From Ruminiclostridium josui JCM 17888 (lineage in GTDB: Bacteria > Bacillota > Clostridia > Acetivibrionales > DSM-1351): DNA of 64,000 nucleotides. Within the stretch, counting starts at the first letter, position 1; the number at the start of each line of letters is the position of its first letter. The position numbers and the translations under genes were made by a program. Below are positions 1 through 12,221 of this stretch, piece after piece. The notes beneath the pieces were generated by a model. The model had not been told where the DNA came from, searched no databases, and was given only the letters and a program-made list of their open reading frames with translations. Location of the stretch: NCBI RefSeq assembly GCF_000526495.1, contig NZ_JAGE01000002.1, positions 372,001-436,000 of the forward strand, read 5' to 3'.

Positions 1-3000
1 TTGTAGTTGCAAACATTGATATTTGTAGTTTAAAAGGAGAAATACTTCTTAATTTGAAGGGCTTTACCTTTAAGAAGGTAAGAAGTATGGAAGATTTCGG
101 AGGGCAAGGTGCTAATAGTACAGTCCTTTCAAATATACATGAGATACAGCAAGAAGATGTCAATATAGATACTAGCGGAGATTTCACTGTTTATGAAAGT
201 ACAAATATAGGTAAGAAAATTGAAAGCTATATAACAGATAAAGTCAAATCTCTCTTAGATGTCGAAGATCATTGTATAGAAAATGATTTAAACTTTATGG
301 ATATGGGGATAGATTCTACAAGCCTGATATCCATGGCCAATGATATTGAAAAGGAGTTAGACCTTGAGCTATATCCTACATTATTTTTTGAATACCAGAA
401 TATTAACGAGCTTGTAGGATACTTTCTAAATGAACACGGCGACAGAGTAAGGTCCTACTTTAATGTAAAAACAGAGAAACCGGTAAAACTCACTGAGAGT
501 AACAAAGGAGTAGAGGACTTAACTGCCAAGAAAAAGGCTGATATTGTAGGCCAAGTAAATAAAAAATCCGAGGAGTATAAAAGCCAGGAGGTCGCAGAAG
601 TTAATGACAATGCTGATGATATTGCTGTTATAGGTATGGCAGGTATTTTTGCCGATTCGCCGGATGTAGAAAGTTTTTGGGAAAATCTCAGAAGCGGAAA
701 GGATTTAATCAGAGAGATTCCTCTCGACCATTTTGATTGCCGGGACTGGTTTGACCCAAATCCCTTGGCAACTGACAAGATGTACTCAAAATGGGGGAGC
801 TTTATTGAGGATGTAGGGAATTTTGACTCTGGGTTCTTTAATATTTCGCCTAGAGAGGCTGCTATGATGGACCCTCAGCTACGAAAACTTCTGCAGGTCA
901 TATATTCTACAGCCGAGGACGCGGGATATGCATCCAGGATTAGCGGTACAAAAACAGGAATGTATGTTGGCGTATGCTTTCACGACTATAATTCGGAGAT
1001 ATCAAGGCATATGATTACTGTCGATCCTCATTCCGGTACTGGGAATGCTGCTACAATGTTGGCAAACAGACCATCATTTTATTTTAATTTGTATGGACCT
1101 AGTTTGGCTGTGGATACGGCATGCTCTTCATCGCTGGTGGCTTTACACCTTGCTTGTAAGGCACTAAAGCAGAATGAATGTGAAATGGCTTTCGCCGCAG
1201 GTACCAACTTACTGCTCAGTCCTTCTCACTACAGGTATTTTTGCAGCATTGGTTTATTATCGCCTACAGGACGCTGCCATACCTTTGACAATAGGGCTGA
1301 TGGTTATGTTCCCGGAGAAGCTGTTACTGCAGTGCTACTAAAACCTTTGAAAAAAGCATTGGAAGACAGAGATAATATTCATGCAATTATTAAGGGTTCT
1401 GCCATCAATCATGGGGGATATACCCCTTCAATTACTGCTCCTAGCGTAAAGCAGGAGGCTCAGGTTATTCAGGATGCCTGGAAGGATGCTGGTATAGACC
1501 CTAGAACGATAGGATATATTGAGGCACATGGTACAGGAACGAAACTGGGCGATCCTATTGAAATTAATGCGCTGCGCATGGTGTTTAAGGATTATCAGGA
1601 TGTTAAGCCTTTCTGTGCTGTGGGTTCGGCAAAGGCACATATAGGACATACCGAAGGAGCCGCTGGAATTACCGGTGTTATTAAGGCTATTATGTCATTA
1701 AAAAAAGGAGAAATACCAGCAATGCCTTATTTTGAAAACCTAAATCCGTATATCAAGCTTGAAGACTCGCCCATATATATAAACCGTAAGCTTGAGGAGT
1801 GGAAGCCTCTTAACGGCCAACCAAGGAGAGCGGGAATCAGCTCATTCGGATTTGGAGGTTCGTACGCACATGTGGTGGTTGAAGAATTCAATAATGGACA
1901 ATATTCTGAGATAACTGAAAATGCAATGCCCCAGATATTCGTCCTTTCTGCACGGAATAGGGAGAGATTGAGAAAGCATGCCGAAAACATAAAGACTTTT
2001 ATTCAAAATAATAAACCCGACACTTCACTTCTGGCTGATATTGCATACACCCTTCAGATTGGGCGTGAGTCAATGGAGGAAAGGCTTGCCGTAATTGCTA
2101 GGGATAAAGATGAACTTGTTTCAGGGCTGACAAAGTTTCTTGAAGGAAATATGAACGGAGATAGGATATATTCAGGTAGTTCAAATAAAGTCAATTTAGA
2201 AGCCCAAATCCTAATCAACGACGACGATGCTGAAGAAATGATTGAAAAATGGTTTAAAAAGGGCAAGCTGGATAAATTGGCACAATTGTGGGTAAATGGT
2301 ATGCAGTTAGATTGGGCCAGATTATCAGGAGGAAAAAGCAGAAGGATAGTATCTTTACCAACATACCCATTTGAAGGCAAACGTTACTGGTTTACAGACA
2401 TTGAGAAAGATGGATTGCAAAAAGCTATTACATCCTCCAAAGGCTCAGAATTTAGTGAGAATGAGAAAGCTTTAATTGATATAATTCAAAAAAATACACC
2501 TGTTGAAGCAGACAGTATAGATATTGATTTTAAATGGGATCAATGGGAAATGGATTCAATTACCTCAATGAAAACTGTTTTTGAGATTTTGAAATTGTCA
2601 GGTTTGCAAGAACGGGAAGGTGAGGGAGACCTTTTGCTTGAATATGTTTCCCGAAACAATCCCAGTATAAAGGAATTGGCAGATTACATAAATAAAAGAG
2701 GTGCGAAAATAGGACAGGAATCCATTGAAAAGTCTCCAATCAGTGACTCAAATAAGGAAGAGTCCGAGCTTCAAGATGATACTGACGAGACAGATACTGG
2801 ATTATGTGTATTACTTCAGAAAATTATTGCTGAAAATACCGGCCATAACATAGAAGATTTAAATCTTGATCAGCCCTTGGATGAATTGGGAACTGACTCT
2901 GTCATAAATGTGAAGATTGCAAGGGATATACTTAACGAGTTCAACTATTTAAATGAACTAACCGATGCTGGAAATGAACTTATAAGATATTTGGCTTCTG

Positions 3001-4055
3001 ATTTTTCAACTATCGGTGGACTTATGGATTTTATAAAAGAACGGAGATTCAGCGTAGAAAAGGAAAAAACACATTTTAGTCTGCATGAAATTAATTTATG
3101 TCAAAAAAATAACAAGCAAAACATTGTAATTGAAGCCATACAAGCAGATGAGAATAATCATGAGGTTTTTAACTGTAAGCTAATTATTGACGAAACACAT
3201 CCCTTCTTCTTTGACCATGAATTGGATCATGTATCGGGAATGCAACTACTGGAAGGAATGAGCCAGCTAACCAGAGCAGGTTTTCTATATAGTTCTGGAA
3301 CTTCGCCGTTAACTCCCTTGTTTATTCCTGAAATTAATGTTTCATATCATGGTTACTGTGTGAAGGAAGAAGAATCCTGGGCTAAAGCTACTCTGATTAA
3401 ATCAAATAATGCAGGATACCATTTTAGTGCAGAAATAATTCAGAATAATACTAAAACTGCTTCTGGTAAATTTACAATTCTGGAAAATAGATTTAAATAT
3501 GAACATACTGAGGACAGTGATTTAACTCCTGCTGGAGAATTCGCTCCTTGTAACCAGCTTATTGTAAATAAGCAAAATCCTTTAAATGTTCTTATTAGTG
3601 ATGTTATTAATGAAAATGGAGACATTGGGTGTTATTTTATTTTTCAACCTGATAACCCTTATTTTAACGACTTTAAGGGGGAATATATAGACAGTGTCGT
3701 ATTGGCTGAGGCGTGTCGCCAGAGCTTCAGAGCCTTTGGATACTACTTTAGCTCACAAAATCAACCTACAAGTAGTGAAAACCTGATACCTGTCCTTAAA
3801 TCCATAAAAATAAAAATTAAGCGCCCATTACATAAAAAAGAGAGGATATTCCTTAAAAAGAGTAAATATGACGTCATAAATGTTGGAAATAATAGTATAT
3901 TAGAGCTAAAAGGCATAATTACTTCCAACGACTTAAAACAGGGCTCTTTTGAAATACAGTCTTTGCTTTTAGAGGAGAGTTATATTTCTAACAATCTTAA
4001 AGATATAAAGATTCCTGCCAAGGGCTCAAGAAAACAAAAAGCAAATAAGCAATAA
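1..4055 (+). CDS. Trans-AT polyketide synthase, C-terminal part, ending in tandem AfsA-like hot-dog domains (partial, 5' end outside window)
   Basis: The reading frame is open from base 3 through the window edge. The first residues (GEILLNLKGFTFKKV) look like the end of a PKS dehydratase, so the TTG at 54 is probably internal. With residue 1 at base 54, the order is: carrier protein (Ser88 in MGIDS); ketosynthase about 188-625 with Cys357 (DTACSSS), His492 (EAHGTGT) and His532 (GHTEG); a KS-to-AT linker ending in PTYPFEGKRYWF with no acyltransferase, typical of trans-AT systems; and two more carrier-like domains (WEMDS, LGTDS). About residues 1040-1150 match the AfsA fold (FFFDHELDHVSGMQLLEG), and about 1165-1310 are a second, degenerate copy (EYIDSVVLAEACRQS). 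AfsA family enzymes join a beta-ketoacyl chain from a carrier protein to dihydroxyacetone phosphate. The genes downstream fit a release and tailoring role. Domain calls are firm; the AfsA chemistry is inferred. Confidence 0.9.
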   Translation, partial: VVANIDICSLKGEILLNLKGFTFKKVRSMEDFGGQGANSTVLSNIHEIQQEDVNIDTSGDFTVYESTNIGKKIESYITDKVKSLLDVEDHCIENDLNFMDMGIDSTSLISMANDIEKELDLELYPTLFFEYQNINELVGYFLNEHGDRVRSYFNVKTEKPVKLTESNKGVEDLTAKKKADIVGQVNKKSEEYKSQEVAEVNDNADDIAVIGMAGIFADSPDVESFWENLRSGKDLIREIPLDHFDCRDWFDPNPLATDKMYSKWGSFIEDVGNFDSGFFNISPREAAMMDPQLRKLLQVIYSTAEDAGYASRISGTKTGMYVGVCFHDYNSEISRHMITVDPHSGTGNAATMLANRPSFYFNLYGPSLAVDTACSSSLVALHLACKALKQNECEMAFAAGTNLLLSPSHYRYFCSIGLLSPTGRCHTFDNRADGYVPGEAVTAVLLKPLKKALEDRDNIHAIIKGSAINHGGYTPSITAPSVKQEAQVIQDAWKDAGIDPRTIGYIEAHGTGTKLGDPIEINALRMVFKDYQDVKPFCAVGSAKAHIGHTEGAAGITGVIKAIMSLKKGEIPAMPYFENLNPYIKLEDSPIYINRKLEEWKPLNGQPRRAGISSFGFGGSYAHVVVEEFNNGQYSEITENAMPQIFVLSARNRERLRKHAENIKTFIQNNKPDTSLLADIAYTLQIGRESMEERLAVIARDKDELVSGLTKFLEGNMNGDRIYSGSSNKVNLEAQILINDDDAEEMIEKWFKKGKLDKLAQLWVNGMQLDWARLSGGKSRRIVSLPTYPFEGKRYWFTDIEKDGLQKAITSSKGSEFSENEKALIDIIQKNTPVEADSIDIDFKWDQWEMDSITSMKTVFEILKLSGLQEREGEGDLLLEYVSRNNPSIKELADYINKRGAKIGQESIEKSPISDSNKEESELQDDTDETDTGLCVLLQKIIAENTGHNIEDLNLDQPLDELGTDSVINVKIARDILNEFNYLNELTDAGNELIRYLASDFSTIGGLMDFIKERRFSVEKEKTHFSLHEINLCQKNNKQNIVIEAIQADENNHEVFNCKLIIDETHPFFFDHELDHVSGMQLLEGMSQLTRAGFLYSSGTSPLTPLFIPEINVSYHGYCVKEEESWAKATLIKSNNAGYHFSAEIIQNNTKTASGKFTILENRFKYEHTEDSDLTPAGEFAPCNQLIVNKQNPLNVLISDVINENGDIGCYFIFQPDNPYFNDFKGEYIDSVVLAEACRQSFRAFGYYFSSQNQPTSSENLIPVLKSIKIKIKRPLHKKERIFLKKSKYDVINVGNNSILELKGIITSNDLKQGSFEIQSLLLEESYISNNLKDIKIPAKGSRKQKANKQ

Positions 4056-4096
4056 ATAAAACAAAAGTAAGACGCTGAAATAAGGAGGATTGTGAT

Positions 4097-5086
4097 ATGC
4101 AAAAAAGATACCTTGGAAATAACGGAGCTGAAGTCTCTGCCATAGGTTTAGGATGTATGGGTATGAGCGAATTTTATGGCAAGGCTGATCCTAAAGAGTC
4201 AAAGAAAACCATTCTTACAGCACTAGAGTCTGGAGTGACTTTTCTTGATACTGCGGATACATATGGAAACGGAGCTAATGAAGAATTGGTTGGTTCGGTA
4301 CTTAAGGAGTGGAAAGGAGATGCTTTTGTCGCTACCAAGTTCGGAATAGTAAGAGAGCCTGGAAGCTATGAACGGAAAATCAATGGACGGCCTGAATATG
4401 TAAGAAAAGCCGCAGAGGCCAGCTTGAGAAGAATGAACAGAGATGTCATAGATTTATACTATCTGCACAGAATTGATTCAAGCATACCTATTGAAGAAAC
4501 CATAGGGGCCATGTCTTTACTGGTCAAGGAAGGTAAGGTACGTTATATAGGAATTTCGGAAGCTTCTCCTGATACCATAAGGCGGGCCCACGCTATTCAC
4601 CCTTTAACAGCTGTTCAATCGGAGTACTCGCTTTTTACAAGAAATGTTGAAGCCCAAGTTTTACCTGTTTTAAAGGAATTAGGTATAGGGTTTGTAGCTT
4701 ATAGTCCATTGAGCAGGGGAATATTAACAGGGCGGCTGGATTCAAATTTGCTGACCCAAGAAGGCGATATGAGAAGATTTTTGCCGCGTATGCAGGGAGA
4801 AAACCTTGCACATAATCTGAAGTTTGTAGACAGGCTGGTGGAAATAGCACAGCAAAAAGGGGTTACTACTGCACAGCTGGTATTGGCCTGGATACTTTCT
4901 AAGGATGAAAATATTGTTCCTATACCGGGGACCAAAAAAGTACAGTATCTTATAGAAAATTTAGAAGCAGCAGAAATTCAGTTGAGCCCTGAAGAAATAA
5001 GTAAAATAGAACAGGCTGTTTCTTCAAAGGAGGTGCTGGGAGAGCGCTATCTTGAATCGGGAATGATAGGAATTGAGAAGTACTAG
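4097..5086 (+). CDS. Aldo/keto reductase
   Basis: A 329-residue NADPH-dependent aldo/keto reductase of the bacterial YhdN/AKR13-like type, with the complete (alpha/beta)8 length. Visible catalytic elements are Asp and Tyr in [13 protein letters not shown], Lys in VATKFG and His in YYLHRID, plus the C-terminal cofactor region VPIPGTKK. It starts 41 bases after the PKS with a good AAGGAGG site, and no terminator separates them, so it is probably co-transcribed. In A-factor-type pathways a reductase acts on the butenolide phosphate made by AfsA. This enzyme could do the equivalent step, or reduce another carbonyl of the polyketide. The family is certain; the substrate is inferred from position only. 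Confidence 0.88.
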
Positions 5087-5160
5087 TACTGTGTGGCAGT
5101 GCTGGGGAGTTTAATTCTAAATTTAAGGTAATTATTAGTTTGTGAGGAGATATAGATAAA

Positions 5161-5865
5161 ATGAAAAACATAAGATTAATAGCTTGTGACATTGATGGGG
5201 TGCTTTTGGAGGATACCTTCAGTCCAGTACTTAGAAATCTTGCCTTAAAATTCGGGCACGAGTATACAAGAGAATTGGAAAGGAATGTGTTTTCCCGCAA
5301 ACGAGCTGATGCTGGAAAATATATGATGGAAGTATTTAATATTGACGACGGAAAGTATTTGTACGATTCCTTTTTCGGGGAAAGGGAAAGGTATTTAAAA
5401 GAGCATGACAGCGGGCTCATTGAAGGTGTCCCCGAGTTTTTGGAGTTTCTATCCTCCCTTGATGTTCAGCTGGTTTGTTACGGAGGACTGTCGGAAGATC
5501 TTATACTGGATGATTTCAAGAAGTATCTAAACTACTTTGACCGTTATGTATGTACAAATGATTTTCGGCCTGGAATAAAAGAGATTACAAAGGATATATA
5601 TGGACTTGATTACAACCAAGTATTGTTTATAGATGATGTGAATACGTTTGCTGAAGCTGCCAAGGCTGATAATGTCCCATTTATAGGAATTCCGTCAAAA
5701 TTTCCTTGGGGTTTCCAAAGACAGGATATGATACGTACGGGATTGAAGTACATACTGAACTCTGTAAAAGAAATCGATTTGGACCTTCTACAGAGAATAG
5801 ACGAAGAAATATCAGATGGGACCTTGTGGAAGAGCCAAGGAGATTTAAAGGGGGAAAAGGGATGA
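5161..5865 (+). CDS. HAD-superfamily hydrolase (phosphatase-like)
   Basis: A 234-residue soluble HAD protein. Motif I is ACDIDGVL near residues 9-15, with both aspartates. A helical cap follows, and motif IV is VLFIDDVNTFAEAA near 157-170. A GAGGAGA site lies about 10 bases before the ATG. Its stop overlaps the ATG of the next HAD gene (ATGA), which implies translational coupling. Placement after a PKS with AfsA domains and a reductase suggests removal of a phosphate from a glycerol-derived phosphorylated intermediate, as in butyrolactone signal synthesis. That role is inference; HAD enzymes are broad in substrate. Confidence 0.82.
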   Translation: MKNIRLIACDIDGVLLEDTFSPVLRNLALKFGHEYTRELERNVFSRKRADAGKYMMEVFNIDDGKYLYDSFFGERERYLKEHDSGLIEGVPEFLEFLSSLDVQLVCYGGLSEDLILDDFKKYLNYFDRYVCTNDFRPGIKEITKDIYGLDYNQVLFIDDVNTFAEAAKADNVPFIGIPSKFPWGFQRQDMIRTGLKYILNSVKEIDLDLLQRIDEEISDGTLWKSQGDLKGEKG

Positions 5866-6533
5866 ATACCTTTCAAAAGCCTCAAACAGTCTTGATAGAT
5901 TTTGACGGTGTAATTTCAAAAAACTCTGTATTGCTGCTCTTTAATTGCCTTCATGGGTTTATTAACAGGTATACACCTTTTCCCAGGGAGGCACTTCTTG
6001 AGTTTTTCAAAAGCACAGTTTCTTTTCCGGTCAAGTCTTCCATGGAGCTTATATTAACATCCTTGGGTATTGAGGATAAAATTATGGAACTATACAGGGA
6101 AGTAAGTCAGATGCAGGATTACGGTGGAACTGGAATTAAAATAGAGGAGAATTTTTATTCTTTTATCGACTTTTGCAAGAAAAATTCAATTTCTTACAGA
6201 ATATTTTCTTCAGCCAGCAAGAATGTAAAAAGATTCTCGGAGTTGCTTGAGAGAGTAGATAATAGTTGCATATGTAACCTTAAAGGACGCTCAAAAGCAA
6301 GATATGCAACTTTTTCAGAGACTTCACAGGAATTGAATATAGATTTAAAAAAGTGTCTGTACATTGATGATTCCCCATCGGCCCTAATGACTGGAAAGCT
6401 ACACGGGATTACAACAGTTATGATGCTAAATGACATTTTCACCTTAAAGGATTACGGAATATTCAATGAATTTATAGATTACAAGGTAAATTCCTTCAAG
6501 GAAGTGGAAGCAATTATTGAAAATATTATGTAA
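5862..6533 (+). CDS. Second HAD-superfamily hydrolase
   Basis: A 223-residue HAD protein. The reading frame is open further upstream, but the ATG at 5862 is chosen because it overlaps the previous stop by four bases and lies behind a purine-rich GGGGGAAAAGGG site. Motif I is LIDFDGVIS, motif II Ser is in IFSSASKN, and motif IV is CLYIDDSPSALM. It differs in sequence from the HAD gene before it, so this is not a recent duplication. The tight coupling suggests the two form a complex or act in sequence. A role in dephosphorylating an intermediate of the polyketide pathway is plausible but unproven. Confidence 0.82.
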   Translation: MNTFQKPQTVLIDFDGVISKNSVLLLFNCLHGFINRYTPFPREALLEFFKSTVSFPVKSSMELILTSLGIEDKIMELYREVSQMQDYGGTGIKIEENFYSFIDFCKKNSISYRIFSSASKNVKRFSELLERVDNSCICNLKGRSKARYATFSETSQELNIDLKKCLYIDDSPSALMTGKLHGITTVMMLNDIFTLKDYGIFNEFIDYKVNSFKEVEAIIENIM

Positions 6534-6567: not shown

Positions 6568-7959
6568 ATGGACAATACCAAATTATTCATTGAGGAAAAA
6601 GTGTGGGTTTTATTATTGAAGTTTTCACTGCCTGCAATAATTGGGACCCTAATTAATGCTCTTTATAACATTATTGACAGAATTTTTATAGGCAACAGCA
6701 CAGGTTCACTAGGTATTGCAGGTATAACAATCGGATTTCCAATTATGATGATAGTGTCTTCATTTGCTGCACTGGTTGGCTCAGGAGCGACAACCCTCGT
6801 TGCAATCAATTTGGGGCAGAAAAAAATAGATGAAGCCGAGAAGGTTATAGGCAATGCTTTTATGTTGCTAATAATAATTTCTTTATTAATAACCATACCA
6901 GGATTGATTTTTTTGAACCCAGTACTAAAAGCCTTTGGTGCCAGTGACAAAGTACTTCCCTTTGCAAGGGAATACATGATTATTATTATGCTGGGGACTA
7001 TTTTTCAACTCATAAGTTTAGGCATGAATAACTTTATCAGAGCTACAGGAAAGCCTAAAAAGGCTATGGCTACTTTGCTTATTGGTGCTGTTTTGAACAC
7101 CATTTTAGCTCCTATCTTTATTTTTGGCTTCAAATGGGGGATGAAAGGGGCCGCACTTGCAACAGTTGTTTCACAGTTGGTATCAGCTGCGTGGGTGCTT
7201 TCACATTTCCTTGGCAAAAATAGTACTCTAAAAATATATATAAAGAACTTCAATCTCCAATCAGATAAGGTTAAAAAGATATTTTCAATAGGCTCTGCAT
7301 CGTTTATTATGCAGGTAGCTGCATCCATATTCAATGTAATTATGAATACAAGTGTCAAAAAATACGGAGGAGATACTGCAATATCAGCAATGGGAGCAGC
7401 CAACAGTATTTTCATGCTTATCATTATGCCTCTTTTAGGGATTAACCTTGGCGCTCAACCAATAATAGGATATAATTTTGGAGCCAAAAGCTATAAAAGA
7501 GTGAAAGAAACTCTAAAATGTGCTATTATTGCTGCAACCGGTATAACAGTATTAGGATTTTTAGTTACCAGAATATTTCCAGGGCAGCTTATGTCGGCAT
7601 TTAACGGTAAAGATAAGGAATTCGTCGATTTTGGAAAGTACGCAATGAGTATTTTTATGTTGGGTTTACCAATTTTAGGATTCCAGTTTGTTGGCTCGGG
7701 ATATTTCCAGTCAATTGGAAAGTACAAACAGGCTATGTTTTTAACTTTGTCAAGACAGATTATTTTTTTAGTACCCCTTCTGTTTATTTTGCCTATTTTT
7801 TTCAAAATGAACGGAGTATTATTTGCTGTTCCAGTATCCGATCTGCTGTCATCTATAATAACAGGTTTATTGCTGTTTAAAGAAATAAAAGGCCTCAACA
7901 GAATACACAATGAGAGTACTGATGTCAACGGTAGTATATCAGGTGAAGTAAGTGGTTAA
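6568..7959 (+). CDS. MATE-family multidrug/natural-product efflux transporter
   Basis: A 463-residue polytopic membrane protein with about 12 hydrophobic segments and the duplicated six-helix halves of MATE proteins. The first half starts LLLKFSLPAIIGTLINALYN and the second repeats the pattern around residues 235-260 (IFSIGSASFIMQ). It resembles the MepA-like branch that exchanges Na+ or H+ for organic compounds. The start codon follows an AGCGAGGA-type site 34 bases after the HAD gene with no visible terminator. As the last gene of the locus it is the likely exporter of the polyketide product; the cargo is inferred from position. Confidence 0.88.
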   Translation: MDNTKLFIEEKVWVLLLKFSLPAIIGTLINALYNIIDRIFIGNSTGSLGIAGITIGFPIMMIVSSFAALVGSGATTLVAINLGQKKIDEAEKVIGNAFMLLIIISLLITIPGLIFLNPVLKAFGASDKVLPFAREYMIIIMLGTIFQLISLGMNNFIRATGKPKKAMATLLIGAVLNTILAPIFIFGFKWGMKGAALATVVSQLVSAAWVLSHFLGKNSTLKIYIKNFNLQSDKVKKIFSIGSASFIMQVAASIFNVIMNTSVKKYGGDTAISAMGAANSIFMLIIMPLLGINLGAQPIIGYNFGAKSYKRVKETLKCAIIAATGITVLGFLVTRIFPGQLMSAFNGKDKEFVDFGKYAMSIFMLGLPILGFQFVGSGYFQSIGKYKQAMFLTLSRQIIFLVPLLFILPIFFKMNGVLFAVPVSDLLSSIITGLLLFKEIKGLNRIHNESTDVNGSISGEVSG

Positions 7960-7978: not shown

Positions 7979-8007
7979 TTGACATTCTTTGTTATTAATA
8001 ATACAAT
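7979..8007 (+). promoter_or_regulatory. cysK promoter
   Basis: TTGACA at 7979-7984 and TACAAT at 8002-8007 are separated by 17 bases. This is an almost ideal vegetative promoter, placed about 60 bases before the cysK start. Confidence 0.75.
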
Positions 8008-8065: not shown

Positions 8066-9001
8066 ATGACAAAAATTGCAAAGAATTTAACTGATCTTAT
8101 AGGGAATACTCCTTTGTTGGAGCTGACGAACTATAATAAGGAAAATGGACTGGAAGCAAAAGTTATTGCTAAACTTGAATCATTCAATCCTGCCAGCAGT
8201 GTGAAAGACAGGATAGGTTATGCCATGATTAAGGACGCAGAGGAAAAAGGGCTTTTGAACAAGGATTCTGTTATTATTGAGCCTACAAGCGGCAATACAG
8301 GTATTGGATTAGCATTTGTTGCAGCTGCAAAGGGGTATAAATTAATAATAACATTGCCTGATACCTTCAGTATTGAAAGAAGGAATCTTTTAAAAGCATT
8401 AGGAGCTGAATTGATTTTAACTCCAGGAGCAGACGGAATGCCTGGAGCTATAAAGAAAGCCGAAGAGCTTGTAGCGCAAACACCTAATTCTTATATGCCC
8501 CAACAGTTTAAAAACCCTGCAAACCCAGAAATTCATAGAAAAACAACAGCTGAAGAAATATGGAGAGACACTGACGGACAAGTGGATGTATTCGTGGCAG
8601 GAGTAGGTACTGGTGGAACAATCACAGGTGTAGGCGAAGTTTTAAAACAGAGAAATCCCAATGTAAAAATTGTAGCAGTTGAGCCTTTTGGTTCTCCGGT
8701 ATTGTCAGGTGGAGTTAAAGGGCCAAACAAGATTCAAGGTATAGGGGCAGGTTTTATTCCAGATGTCTTAAATCTAAAGATAGTTGATGAGATATACAAG
8801 GTTAAGGATGAAGAAGCTTTTGAGACCTCAAGAAAGCTTGCAAGAACAGAGGGCCTATTAGTTGGTATCTCATCTGGTGCAGCAACATTTGCAGCAACTC
8901 AGATAGCAAAAAGACCTGAATTTAAAGGTAAGAATATCGTAGTAATATTGCCTGATACTGGAGAGAGATACTTATCAACGGTATTATTTCAAGACGTATA
9001 A
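8066..9001 (+). CDS. cysK: Cysteine synthase (O-acetylserine sulfhydrylase)
   Basis: A 311-residue PLP enzyme that makes cysteine from O-acetylserine and sulfide. The ATG at 8066 is chosen over upstream in-frame codons because GGAGG lies 8 bases before it and the protein then begins like the family ([10 protein letters not shown]). The PLP lysine is in NPASSVKDR, the substrate loop is [10 protein letters not shown], the phosphate-binding loop is [10 protein letters not shown], and GISSGAA is near the end. It has its own promoter and terminator, so it is a single-gene unit. The shared sulfur motif after its promoter ties its control to the sulfur island at 38-49 kb. Confidence 0.95.
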
Positions 9002-9040: not shown

Positions 9041-9073
9041 AATACCTCGTCGAAGTAGGCGGGGTATTTTATT
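9041..9073 (+). terminator. Terminator after cysK
   Basis: AATACCTC and GGGGTATT pair around a short loop, followed by TTTTATT. It lies about 40 bases after the cysK stop. Confidence 0.65.
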
Positions 9074-9326: not shown

Positions 9327-10850
9327 ATGGGTAAAATTAATTTAGCATCTACTACTGTTGTAAGTCGTGAACAGCGCCTTGGTACCATTATTAGCTGGGA
9401 AGGCGATGCTCTAAAACTGGTAGAGGAATCAGGATATTCTGTTCCCGGTTGCACCGGTAAAAAAGGCAACGGTTGTAAGCTTTGCGAAATAAATGGACCT
9501 TTTACACAAGGCTCTGTTTGCAGTGAACAAATGGTGGAATGCCAGGCTGGAAATGTGCGAGGTGCCGTACTGATTCAACATTCTCCTATTGGTTGTGCAG
9601 TGAGCCAAACAATCTATAACTCAATATATCGTAATGGTCTTGCTATGAGGGGACTTCCTGTTGAAAATCTTAAAATAGTTTCTACAAACTTGATAGAAGG
9701 TGATATGGTTTTCGGAGGTATTGGAAAGCTTGAACAGACACTGAACGATGTATGGGAAAGATACAAGCCAAATGCTATTTTTATTGGAACAGCCTGTGCT
9801 ACAGGAATTATCGGTGATGATATTGACAGCGTTGCATCGGAGTATAAAGAGAAGTTTGGAATTCCCGTAATTCCACTACATTGTGAGGGTTTCCGCTCAA
9901 AACATTGGAGCACAGGATTTGATGCTACTCAACACGGTATTTTAAGGGATATAGTACGGAAGAATCCCAAGAAGCAAGAAGATTTAGTGAATGTAATCAA
10001 TCTTTGGGGTTCTGATGTATTTACGCCAATGCTTAAAGAACTTAATTTACGGGTGAACTATGTTGTAGATTTGGCCACTGTTGAGGATTTGGCACAAATG
10101 TCTGAGGCTGCTTTGACAGTTGGCTTTTGCAACACCCTTTCCTCGTATTTGGCCCAGGGACTAGAACAGAATTTTGGTGTTCCGGAATTAAAAGCTCCTC
10201 AACCTTATGGATTTGCCGGAACTGATGCCTGGCTTAGGGGTATAGCAAAAATCACACATCGTGAGGAGCTTTGTGAGGCCTACATAAAAAAAGAACATGA
10301 ACGTGTAACACCAAAAATTGAAGAGTTAAAGAAAAAACTGAAGGGTGTAAAAGGATATGTTGCAACAGGTTCTGCATATTCTCATGGACTGATTTCAGTA
10401 TTGAGAGAGTTGGGGGTTGAAGTAAACGGTTCATTGGTTTTCCACCACGATCCTATCTATGACAGTGAAGATCCTATACAAGACTCTTTGGCTTTTCTTG
10501 TTAATAACTATGGGAATGTGGAAAATTTCAGTGTTAGTAATAGACAACCATATCAGCTATATGCCTTACTGAAAAAAGTTAAGCCTGACTTTTTATTAAT
10601 AAGACATAACGGGTTGGCACCTCTTGCATCACGTCTTGGTATTCCTGCTGCTCCCCTTGGAGACGAACATATTGCAGTAGGTTATGAAGGTATTGTAAAC
10701 TTGGGGGAAGCAATACTAGCTATTTTAAAAAGAAAGAAATTTCATGAAGATTTGTCACAGCATATTAAGCTACCTTATACAAAATGGTGGCTAAGTCAAG
10801 ATGATCCATATATCCTTGCTAAAAACCCGGAAATTATATATCAGGACTAA
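9327..10850 (+). CDS. Nitrogenase component-1-like protein, alpha/E type
   Basis: A 507-residue protein of the NifD/NifE/BchN superfamily. A Cys-rich N-terminal stretch (GCTGKKGNGCKLC, then SVCSEQMVEC) is followed by HSPIGCAV and TACATGIIGDDID, which align with the three P-cluster cysteine regions of NifD. FCNTLSSYL followed by FGVPEL matches the region of the NifD cofactor cysteine, and GDEHIAVGYEG matches that of the cofactor histidine. Metal-cluster binding is therefore likely. A GGAGGAG site precedes the ATG. The beta-type partner follows in the same operon; nifH and nifB are absent here. Candidates are a NifE-like scaffold or the catalytic subunit of a nitrogenase-like reductase such as methylthio-alkane reductase. 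The neighbouring sulfur genes favour the latter but do not prove it. Confidence 0.82.
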   Translation: MGKINLASTTVVSREQRLGTIISWEGDALKLVEESGYSVPGCTGKKGNGCKLCEINGPFTQGSVCSEQMVECQAGNVRGAVLIQHSPIGCAVSQTIYNSIYRNGLAMRGLPVENLKIVSTNLIEGDMVFGGIGKLEQTLNDVWERYKPNAIFIGTACATGIIGDDIDSVASEYKEKFGIPVIPLHCEGFRSKHWSTGFDATQHGILRDIVRKNPKKQEDLVNVINLWGSDVFTPMLKELNLRVNYVVDLATVEDLAQMSEAALTVGFCNTLSSYLAQGLEQNFGVPELKAPQPYGFAGTDAWLRGIAKITHREELCEAYIKKEHERVTPKIEELKKKLKGVKGYVATGSAYSHGLISVLRELGVEVNGSLVFHHDPIYDSEDPIQDSLAFLVNNYGNVENFSVSNRQPYQLYALLKKVKPDFLLIRHNGLAPLASRLGIPAAPLGDEHIAVGYEGIVNLGEAILAILKRKKFHEDLSQHIKLPYTKWWLSQDDPYILAKNPEIIYQD

Positions 10851-10865
10851 TTTGGGAGGTAGAAA

Positions 10866-12221
10866 ATGTCACATATTCAAAATTCTTACGAAAATCAGAA
10901 AACAAATTCTATAAGCCGACCACGTTATGGTTGTGCAATCGGTGCTATGTATACTGCAAGTGCAATTCCGGGAGTAGTTCCAATTACTCATTGCGGCCCG
11001 GGTTGTGCAGATAAGCAATATGTAAGTCTTGCTTTTTACAACGGGTTTCAGGGAGGCGGCTATGGTGGCGGAGCTGTTCCACCCAGTCTTAATGCTTCAG
11101 AAAATGAAGTGGTATTTGGAGGAAATGAAAGGCTTAAAGAGCTGATACAGGCTTCAATAAAAGTAATTGATGCAGATTTGTTTGTAGTACTTACAGGGTG
11201 TATACCTGACCTTGTTGGTGATGATGTACCGTCGGTTGTATCAAAATATCAAGAAAAAGGTGTTCCAATTGTTTACGCTGAAACAGGCGGTTTTAAAGGC
11301 AATAACTATACAGGTCATGAACTGGTTACAAAGGCAATTATTGACCAATATGTGGGTGAGTACAAAGGTGAAAAGAAAAAGAATGTAGTTAATGTTTGGA
11401 CGGAAATTCCATATCAAAATCCATTTTGGAGGGGGGATCTGGCTGAAATCAAACGTATTCTTGAAGGAATAGGCCTTGAAGTTAATATTTTATTTGGACA
11501 TGAATCAAAAGGTGTTAAAGAATGGAAAGAAATACCCAAGGCTCAGTTTAATCTTGTAGTATCAACTTGGCTGGGACTTAGTACAGCAGAGCACCTTGAG
11601 AAAAAATACGGTCAGCCGTTTTTACATATACCTGTAATACCAATTGGTGCCAAAGCAACATCTGAGTTCTTACGCAAAGTCTCGGATTTTGCTGGATTAA
11701 ATCAGGAAAAGACAGAACAATTCATACAAGAGGAAGAGAAACTTTATTATAAATATTTGGAAGATTTCTCAGACTTTTATGCAGAATATTGGTGGGGGGT
11801 TCCATCAAAATTTGCTGTTGTGGGTGAAAGCAGCTATAATCTGGCCATTTCAAAATTTCTTGTAAATCAGCTTGGGTTGATTCCGGTTAAGCAAATTATA
11901 ACTGAGAATCCTCCTGAAGAGCATAAGGATAATATTAGAAAAGAATTTGAAAACATTGCAGATGATGTCAGTGTATCACCTCTTTTTTTGGAGGATGGTT
12001 ATTTGATTGAGCAAGCACTTATTAATTCGGAAGAAAAGCCCGCTATTATTTTAGGAACAACCTGGGATAGAGATGCTGCTAAGCAGCTTGGAGGGAATAT
12101 TGTTGAAATTGGATTCCCGTCATCTTATGAGGTGATTTTGTCAAGAGCAAACGTCGGATATAGAGGTGCACTGTCCTTGATTGAAAAAATATTTACTATT
12201 GCCATCAGTGCAAGTGCTTAA
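10866..12221 (+). CDS. Nitrogenase component-1-like protein, beta/N type
   Basis: A 451-residue partner of the upstream protein, starting 15 bases after it behind TTGGGAGGTAG. It is shorter than NifK and lacks the long NifK N-terminus. Cysteines occur in RPRYGCAIGAM, ITHCGPGCADKQ and VLTGCIPDLVGDDV, matching the beta-side P-cluster region (the last is the NifK/NifN-like Cys before GDD). It probably forms a heterotetramer with the alpha-type protein. Without nifH in the window, the electron-donating Fe protein must come from elsewhere in the genome. The specific reaction cannot be read from sequence. Confidence 0.8.
   Translation: MSHIQNSYENQKTNSISRPRYGCAIGAMYTASAIPGVVPITHCGPGCADKQYVSLAFYNGFQGGGYGGGAVPPSLNASENEVVFGGNERLKELIQASIKVIDADLFVVLTGCIPDLVGDDVPSVVSKYQEKGVPIVYAETGGFKGNNYTGHELVTKAIIDQYVGEYKGEKKKNVVNVWTEIPYQNPFWRGDLAEIKRILEGIGLEVNILFGHESKGVKEWKEIPKAQFNLVVSTWLGLSTAEHLEKKYGQPFLHIPVIPIGAKATSEFLRKVSDFAGLNQEKTEQFIQEEEKLYYKYLEDFSDFYAEYWWGVPSKFAVVGESSYNLAISKFLVNQLGLIPVKQIITENPPEEHKDNIRKEFENIADDVSVSPLFLEDGYLIEQALINSEEKPAIILGTTWDRDAAKQLGGNIVEIGFPSSYEVILSRANVGYRGALSLIEKIFTIAISASA

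Follow-up and report, generated by a model that had tools for sequence, protein, structure and literature searches.

The question raised by this locus is how a clostridial assembly line releases its finished chain when its last polyketide synthase (PKS) subunit ends in an AfsA-like domain and is followed by a reductase and two HAD proteins. The locus stands at the beginning of a 64,000-nucleotide stretch of Ruminiclostridium josui JCM 17888 (contig NZ_JAGE01000002.1, positions 372,001 to 436,000 of the forward strand). We call this stretch the window, and positions given below are those of the window unless marked as contig positions. Our preferred answer, which we consider likely, is that this is the chain-release end of a trans-acyltransferase (trans-AT) nonribosomal peptide synthetase (NRPS)-PKS for a putative antibiotic-like product. 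Release would probably be in the form of a butenolide, AfsA and the HAD proteins yielding a 4-hydroxy-3-methylbutenolide.

The AfsA didomain and the last module

The gene of the last PKS subunit encodes 1617 residues (contig 371202-376055) and starts 799 bases upstream of the window. Its domain order, according to Pfam profiles and motifs, is dehydratase (DH), acyl carrier protein (ACP), ketosynthase (KS), ACP, ACP, AfsA, AfsA. The parts found in the window are as follows:

3..4055, + strand: last PKS subunit, C-terminal 1350 residues, ...ACP-KS-ACP-ACP-AfsA (hotdog 1 + hotdog 2); open frame, Pfam
615..2147, + strand: last ketosynthase and linker, active-site Cys in DTACSS (1113-1130), EAHGTG (1521-1538), GHTEGAAG (1644-1667); Pfam, motifs
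2541..2567, + strand: probable first carrier of the last module, QWEMDSITS; DSI motif only, no Pfam match
2814..2945, + strand: second carrier of the last module, PF00550, Ser motif ELGTDSV (2883-2903); Pfam, motif
3105..3542, + strand: AfsA hotdog 1, PF03756 stretch 3105-3344, motif HPFFFDHELDHVSGMQLLEGMSQ at 3198-3266; profile, motif
3543..4055, + strand: AfsA hotdog 2 and tail, PF03756 stretch 3564-3728, motif NPYFNDFKGEYIDSVVLAEACRQ at 3654-3722; profile, motif

A first-pass annotation had described an assembly-line protein with a C-terminal AfsA-like domain, and the open frame and the PF03756 profile (curated cut-off 24 bits) bear this out. The motif that it quoted is the one at 3198-3266. 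The profile matches the window protein with 68.7 bits and the didomain alone with 74.4 bits, in two stretches. A search of the whole genome returned the same two, each above the cut-off (46.4 bits at 3105-3344 and 30.2 bits at 3564-3728), and no further stretch at E<=0.001. The annotation had also spoken of a complete domain plus a degenerate copy; the two stretches are there, but they are the usual tandem hotdog, and SrrX-like (L034), ScbA-like (L016) and MmfL-like (L017) proteins likewise contain two PF03756 stretches each. Since this tandem is normal for AfsA, the didomain is best read as one enzyme.

According to the annotation, a better score as a PKS dehydratase-type hotdog than as AfsA would have refuted it. 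The scores go the other way and leave very little room for reading the C-terminus as an ordinary double hotdog of the PKS dehydratase type. Neither PS-DH nor PKS_DH_N matches the didomain at E<=1, as against 74.4 bits for AfsA, while the genuine DH of the same subunit reaches 64.2 and 46.1 bits and the DH domains across the assembly line score 46-114 bits. In the solved structures no AfsA relative was found at E<=1 for the single protein, and a profile of five sequences gave only unrelated matches and weak ones to FabZ-type chains (best E = 0.046). The latter speak for a dehydratase, but they are expected from the common hotdog fold, and at the profile level we regard this reading as refuted.

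The order of the two halves is a different matter. Separate hidden Markov models (HMMs) of the N-half and the C-half were built from 12 Streptomyces AfsA-family proteins; hotdog 1 reached 46.9 bits with the C-type model and -0.4 with the N-type model, and hotdog 2 was ambiguous between them (8.1 and 3.4 bits). NF041195, the ScbA/BarX equivalog model, aligns hotdog 1 to its positions 196-287 of 290. Because the half-HMMs and NF041195 agree that hotdog 1 is of the C-type, matching the C-terminal half of ScbA, the halves appear to be swapped with respect to Streptomyces AfsA. The C-type half also comes first in a stand-alone protein of Aliiroseovarius, whose alignment covers 79% of the window didomain with 26.5% identity.

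The last module itself agrees well with AfsA release. The last KS retains the Cys and both His motifs, and Pfam and motif searches found no ketoreductase or dehydratase between it and AfsA, so that the module should deliver a beta-ketothioester, even though a ketoreductase acting in trans could intervene. Beta-ketothioesters are described as AfsA substrates (PMC7756379). AfsA directly follows the last carrier, and no Pfam thioesterase match was found at the C-terminal end of the PKS, an arrangement that by its domain order fits the gladiofungin-type PKSs.

Several points nevertheless weigh against the butenolide reading. The hotdog order is unlike that of Streptomyces AfsA; the NF041195 score (45.7 bits) is far below the cut-off of 200, which leaves the protein outside the ScbA/BarX equivalogs; identity to AfsA proteins is low, 24-36% among the 40 matches listed. 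The ExxRQ pattern, present in both hotdogs of the aligned Streptomyces rows, is kept in hotdog 2 only, the Arg being replaced by Ser in hotdog 1; the Aliiroseovarius protein has likewise lost it in hotdog 1. Near the cluster start there is an alpha/beta hydrolase, a possible thioesterase (contig 328016-328825), and for the gladiofungin PKS GlaE the Glu-to-Ala exchange E10080A, an editing control, is reported to leave the metabolite profile unaltered (PMC7756420).

The hydrolase, the lost Arg and the low equivalog score would all suit a double hotdog that no longer condenses, with the hydrolase releasing an acid or a lactone. We think this quite unlikely. Seven didomain residues are invariant in an alignment of five sequences (H48, H52, V53, E60, Q64, G114, Q123), among them the Glu and the two His residues of the FDH/DH motif; the PKS end lacks a thioesterase match, AfsA-linked HAD genes are kept beside AfsA, and the hydrolase could be an editing enzyme.

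The HAD genes as probable partners of AfsA

The genes following the PKS are arranged as the first-pass annotation had described them, a reductase and then two coupled HAD genes on the same strand:

4097..5086, + strand: aldo/keto reductase; PF00248, 264 bits
5161..5865, + strand: HAD1, SrrP-type, motif I DIDGVLL at 5188-5208; homology, motif
5862..6533, + strand: HAD2, DFDG/SSAS/IDDS motifs, start taken as ATG 5862; Pfam, motifs
6568..7959, + strand: MATE exporter, candidate exporter of the product; Pfam, 34 bases downstream of HAD2

The start of HAD2 overlaps the end of HAD1 by 4 bases, and the gaps between PKS, aldo/keto reductase, HAD1, HAD2 and MATE are 41, 74, -4 and 34 bases, respectively. 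At the level of HAD families the assignments are weak: HAD1 is just below the Pfam cut-offs (23.2 of 26.4 bits and 21.4 of 23.8 bits), HAD2 is just above one of them (27.0 of 23.8 bits), and NCBIfam gave nothing above its cut-offs for either protein.

The relationship to SrrP is much clearer. Over residues 2-218 of the query, HAD1 shares 41.8% identity with the HAD that occupies the srrP position on pSGRIFU1, where the order AfsA, P450, HAD, ScbR-type regulator and short-chain dehydrogenase/reductase (SDR) fits the order given for Streptomyces rochei, i.e. srrX (orf85), srrO (orf84), srrP (orf83), srrA (orf82) and srrG (orf81) (PMC7564063). Homologous to this protein and separated by a single gene from the PKS gene that ends in AfsA, HAD1 is by sequence a member of the SrrP family, SrrP being the neighbour of the butenolide synthase SrrX. 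A Bacillota metagenome-assembled genome (MAG; JAAYEK010000058.1) encodes an even closer relative (61% identity) immediately behind a stand-alone AfsA. It is followed by a gene that matches HAD2 at 55%, so that the order is the same as in the window.

A contig scan with two HAD1 sequences gave 76 pattern matches and five loci, and all five genomes contain a PF03756 match above the cut-off. AfsA is found within 1 kb of HAD1 in four of them: the Bacillota MAG, Lactococcus hircilactis, a Leptospiraceae MAG (JAGOHK010000018.1) and Streptomyces sp. NRRL F-5126. In the fifth, S. fructofermentans (L022), no AfsA was present in the 20.3 kb around HAD1, and a frame with two PF03756 stretches lies elsewhere in the genome. 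HAD2 accompanies HAD1 in the two MAGs. Searching the plasmid collection, we found HAD1 relatives in 19 records, all from Streptomyces, with 39-45% identity, and for HAD2 one weak Rhizobium match only. Thirteen of these loci were opened, and a gene annotated as ScbA/BarX is within 3.5 kb in 12 of them; in the one that departs from this, KMM 9044, the HAD has an ScbR-type regulator as its neighbour, and the nearest AfsA match seen is ~57 kb away. For the remaining six records the match coordinates put AfsA within ~2 kb, so that 18 of 19 plasmid records (several of them near-identical strains) have AfsA within 3.5 kb.

In a tree of 19 HAD1 rows the window, the Bacillota MAG, Lactococcus and Leptospiraceae form a group (100/99 support) apart from Streptomyces, and for this reason the window HAD1 seems not to have been copied recently from a Streptomyces gene. 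MmfP was considered as a further relative and rejected: an MmfP-like row belongs to PF12710 and had no blastp match to HAD1 at E<=10.

The nucleophilic Asp of motif I is present in HAD1 (DIDG) and HAD2 (DFDG) of the window. For HAD1 this is not the rule. The comparison covered 18 HAD1-family proteins with a complete motif I; it did not include L033, which is annotated to start only downstream of this motif, nor the MmfP row, nor six of the plasmid records (19 in all). Fourteen carry Asn at this position (NIDG), including the Bacillota MAG and the srrP-position protein (L034:3495-4235), and the Asp is kept in the window, Lactococcus, Leptospiraceae and Streptomyces AMCC400023 (4 out of 18); all three aligned HAD2 members have Asp. 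PMC7564063 and PMC12301235 describe SrrP as a phosphatase, but the Asn in most SrrP-type proteins suggests that the family may not consist of plain phosphatases. Either HAD1 would have another role and HAD2 would be the phosphatase, or the family would dephosphorylate without an aspartyl intermediate. This belongs to the difficulties of the butenolide reading, and so does the divergence of the AfsA-like partners outside Streptomyces: with one PF03756 stretch each (56.2 and 69.5 bits in the two MAGs, 29.2 bits in Lactococcus) they are weak witnesses for AfsA chemistry.

Some of these loci deserve a comment of their own. In Lactococcus hircilactis (L020:8078-12005) a ketosynthase, AfsA, HAD1 and an MFS transporter form a compact set that could be a stand-alone butenolide pathway. 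In the Leptospiraceae MAG (L021:8883-11361) AfsA, HAD1 and HAD2 overlap head to tail, and this AfsA has a weak C-terminal PilZ-like match (18.6 bits, below the cut-off of 22.5). In Streptomyces sp. NRRL F-5126 (L023:7466-8281) a second HAD of the PF12710 type, the type seen in the mmfRLHP-like locus L024, adjoins the AfsA-HAD1 pair, and we speculate that it could supply the phosphatase where HAD1 is without its nucleophile.

The aldo/keto reductase, whose closest solved relatives are perakine reductase and IolS, was rejected as a fixed member of this cassette, as it is near AfsA in only one of the five HAD1 loci (in Streptomyces sp. NRRL F-5126, where a similar enzyme, 43%, is separated from AfsA by ~2.6 kb). 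This bears on an A-factor-type gamma-butyrolactone, for which AfsA would condense, the neighbouring aldo/keto reductase would reduce the ring double bond and dephosphorylation would follow. Such a route draws on the NRRL F-5126 gene and on the reductase and phosphatase-like genes directly downstream of the PKS on the same strand. Yet the AfsA-HAD1-HAD2 cassettes of the Bacillota and Leptospiraceae MAGs contain no match to the window enzyme within the stretch searched, 11 of the 13 opened Streptomyces plasmid loci have a reductase annotated as SDR or glucose 1-dehydrogenase, and HAD1 is of the type of SrrP, from a pathway whose SRB products are described as retaining the ring double bond (PMC7564063). 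Because the aldo/keto reductase is outside the conserved cassette, ring reduction to a butyrolactone is less likely than a butenolide, and we regard it as an unlikely outcome. The A-factor-like set of reductase and phosphatase suggested by the first-pass annotation thus holds in part: HAD1 is of SrrP type and AfsA-linked (4 of 5 loci, 18 of 19 plasmid records) but the reductase is not, and of the two products proposed, butenolide or butyrolactone, it is the butenolide that is favoured.

Setting, rarity and mobility of the cluster

The trans-AT context that had been proposed for the PKS is supported by the genes upstream. A trans AT-enoylreductase protein and a methyltransferase occur together with the alpha/beta hydrolase, two PKS/NRPS proteins of 3515 aa and 4235 aa contain condensation, adenylation, tandem peptidyl carrier protein and nitroreductase domains, and further genes encode an HMG-CoA-synthase-like protein, an enoyl-CoA-hydratase-like protein and two more PKS subunits. 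The adenylation domain (contig 340209-341870), aligned to solved NRPS domains and read by eye, has the apparent code DVWHFSLVDK, which is of the Ser type. A DxxxxDxxS cyclisation motif and a nitroreductase domain are present in the NRPS part, and one condensation domain is of the heterocyclisation type by motif. Code, motif and nitroreductase together suggest an oxazole in the predicted product.

AfsA is very rare in this lineage, and its presence is more than a matter of chance. Of the 11 genus genomes the own one alone has it. At E<=0.001, PF03756 matched a single genome of the 391 sampled in the class, again the own one, 2 of 398 in the phylum and none of 14 control genomes; among 368 phylum genomes around that of Lactococcus nothing was found beyond the two known stand-alone ones. 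AfsA, HAD1 and HAD2 co-occur in the same 2 of 398 phylum genomes, the own one and the Bacillota MAG. As the own genome was chosen for its locus, the independent co-occurrence of all three is 1 of 397. No AfsA relatives were confirmed in viral contigs. A match in Mycetohabitans is a 186-aa stand-alone open reading frame on a megaplasmid.

The two genes that flank the cluster are separated by 460 bases in the close relative G006, where they are 91 and 95% identical, and by 2.9 kb in G007. The alignment shows that contig ~325216 to 381103 (55.9 kb, left edge ~325116-325216) is absent from both; at this site G006 has ~85 bases and G007 an insert with two unrelated-looking genes, by eye a sigma-factor gene and its partner (L053, G007:C1:2292000-2299000). 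The G+C content of the cluster is 0.396 as opposed to 0.35 in the flanks. The comparison of genomes thus marks the PKS cluster as a movable one, and the chromosomal spot may be a site of repeated insertion. The inserted stretch includes the aldo/keto reductase, both HAD genes, MATE and the following last gene:

8066..9001, + strand: PF00291 gene, cysteine-synthase-like (by eye), start taken as ATG 8066, listed frame from 7970; Pfam
9104, no strand: right edge of the ~55.9-kb inserted region; alignment to the closest relatives

The PF00291 gene has a promoter-like site at 7979-8007 and a terminator-like hairpin at 9041-9068. Just beyond the insertion edge (9327-12221) there are two nitrogenase-component-type genes (PF00148), the first of which has relatives in 9 of 11 genus genomes (own included) and three matches in its own genome.

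The proposed release route and known systems

From the domain families, the module without a ketoreductase, the gene order and the association of AfsA with HAD genes, we infer the condensation, its C3 donor, the HAD steps and the product as follows. The final module, KS-ACP-ACP without a ketoreductase, would make a beta-ketoacyl thioester. The AfsA double hotdog would join this chain by condensation to a C3 phosphate, for which dihydroxyacetone phosphate (DHAP) is the most likely candidate, as for the gladiostatin domain, and ring closure by AfsA would release a phosphorylated 2-acylbutenolide. The loss of the phosphate and the final form of the ring, 4-hydroxy-3-methylbutenolide, would be the work of HAD1, of the SrrP type, and HAD2. 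A possible task of the aldo/keto reductase is the reduction of a ketone in another position, and MATE would carry the product out of the cell.

The first-pass annotation had implied that a line of this kind was new, and this is not supported. AfsA-ended trans-AT PKSs are described (PMC7756379), and orphan clusters of this type are named in Ruminiclostridium, Paenibacillus and Gloeobacter (PMC7756420); the window cluster may be one of these. The GdsF ACP-AfsA didomain is reported to condense 3-ketothioesters (short chain mimics) with DHAP in vitro to a phosphorylated butenolide (PMC7756379), and deletion of 65% of the AfsA domain of GlaE to abolish gladiofungin (PMC7756420). According to these accounts, AfsA release from a trans-AT PKS is known in kind and proven for one Burkholderia antibiotic. 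As for the HAD partner, the gladiofungin cluster is said to include a HAD-family phosphatase gene, glaP (PMC10574677), and expression of sabA, sabP and sabD in other hosts is reported to have led to SAB butenolides (PMC6930871). The 4-hydroxy-3-methylbutenolide is the ring given for gladiostatin/gladiofungin and the SRB compounds (PMC7756379, PMC7756420, PMC7564063), and its formation from the phosphorylated butenolide is stated as unsolved (PMC7756379). Among the papers listed from the open literature, mostly at the level of titles and abstract openings, we recognised no description of the product of a clostridial AfsA-ended cluster.

It is useful to compare the window with these systems. The gladiofungin/gladiostatin PKS of Burkholderia gladioli (GlaE/GdsF) also has a C-terminal AfsA-like or 'phosphorylated butenolide synthase' domain, to which the window line adds an NRPS part (condensation, adenylation, nitroreductase) and an HMG-synthase-like gene. 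The SRB locus (srrX-srrO-srrP-srrG) resembles the window in that an AfsA homologue is beside an SrrP-type HAD. However, the SRB and SAB (sabA-sabP-sabD) clusters of Streptomyces have a stand-alone AfsA with the N-type hotdog before the C-type one and Asn at the HAD nucleophile, whereas in the window AfsA is fused to the PKS, the C-type hotdog comes first, the Asp is kept and HAD2 is present. The sets of the Bacillota MAG, the Leptospiraceae MAG and Lactococcus hircilactis share the HAD1 lineage of the window, and HAD2 in the case of the MAGs, but their AfsA is not fused to a PKS and has one PF03756 stretch; Lactococcus has its own ketosynthase and MFS transporter. The A-factor and ScbA synthases, finally, show PF03756 in two stretches like the window didomain, which differs by its neighbours and by falling far below the NF041195 cut-off. 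Three points are not stated in the passages of these papers that were covered: an AfsA-HAD1-HAD2 cassette outside Actinobacteria, SrrP-type proteins that for the most part (among those compared) have lost the nucleophile, and a hotdog order with the C-type half in front.

A further step, which is speculative and which we put forward as a doubtful possibility, is that AfsA and HAD1, in some lineages with HAD2, are an old butenolide cassette outside Actinobacteria that is here joined to a PKS. HAD1 and SrrP, in which Asn replaces the nucleophile in most members compared, would then be something other than simple phosphatases: with the phosphate bound together with Mg, they would promote its elimination from a phosphorylated 3-(hydroxymethyl)butenolide, water adding at C-4 to give the 4-hydroxy-3-methyl ring directly. 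If true, this would answer the question from the gladiostatin paper of how the phosphorylated butenolide is converted.

Only a few assembly lines are thought to terminate with a butenolide made by AfsA. The window cluster gives them a further scaffold, and it comes from a lineage that hardly has AfsA. HAD1 and HAD2, both with the catalytic Asp, are concrete enzymes for the question of the phosphorylated butenolide, and Streptomyces, Bacillota and a spirochaete all point to a single HAD family that accompanies AfsA. The AfsA-HAD sets of Lactococcus, the Bacillota MAG and the Leptospiraceae MAG suggest that butenolide-type small molecules may be made outside Actinobacteria as well.

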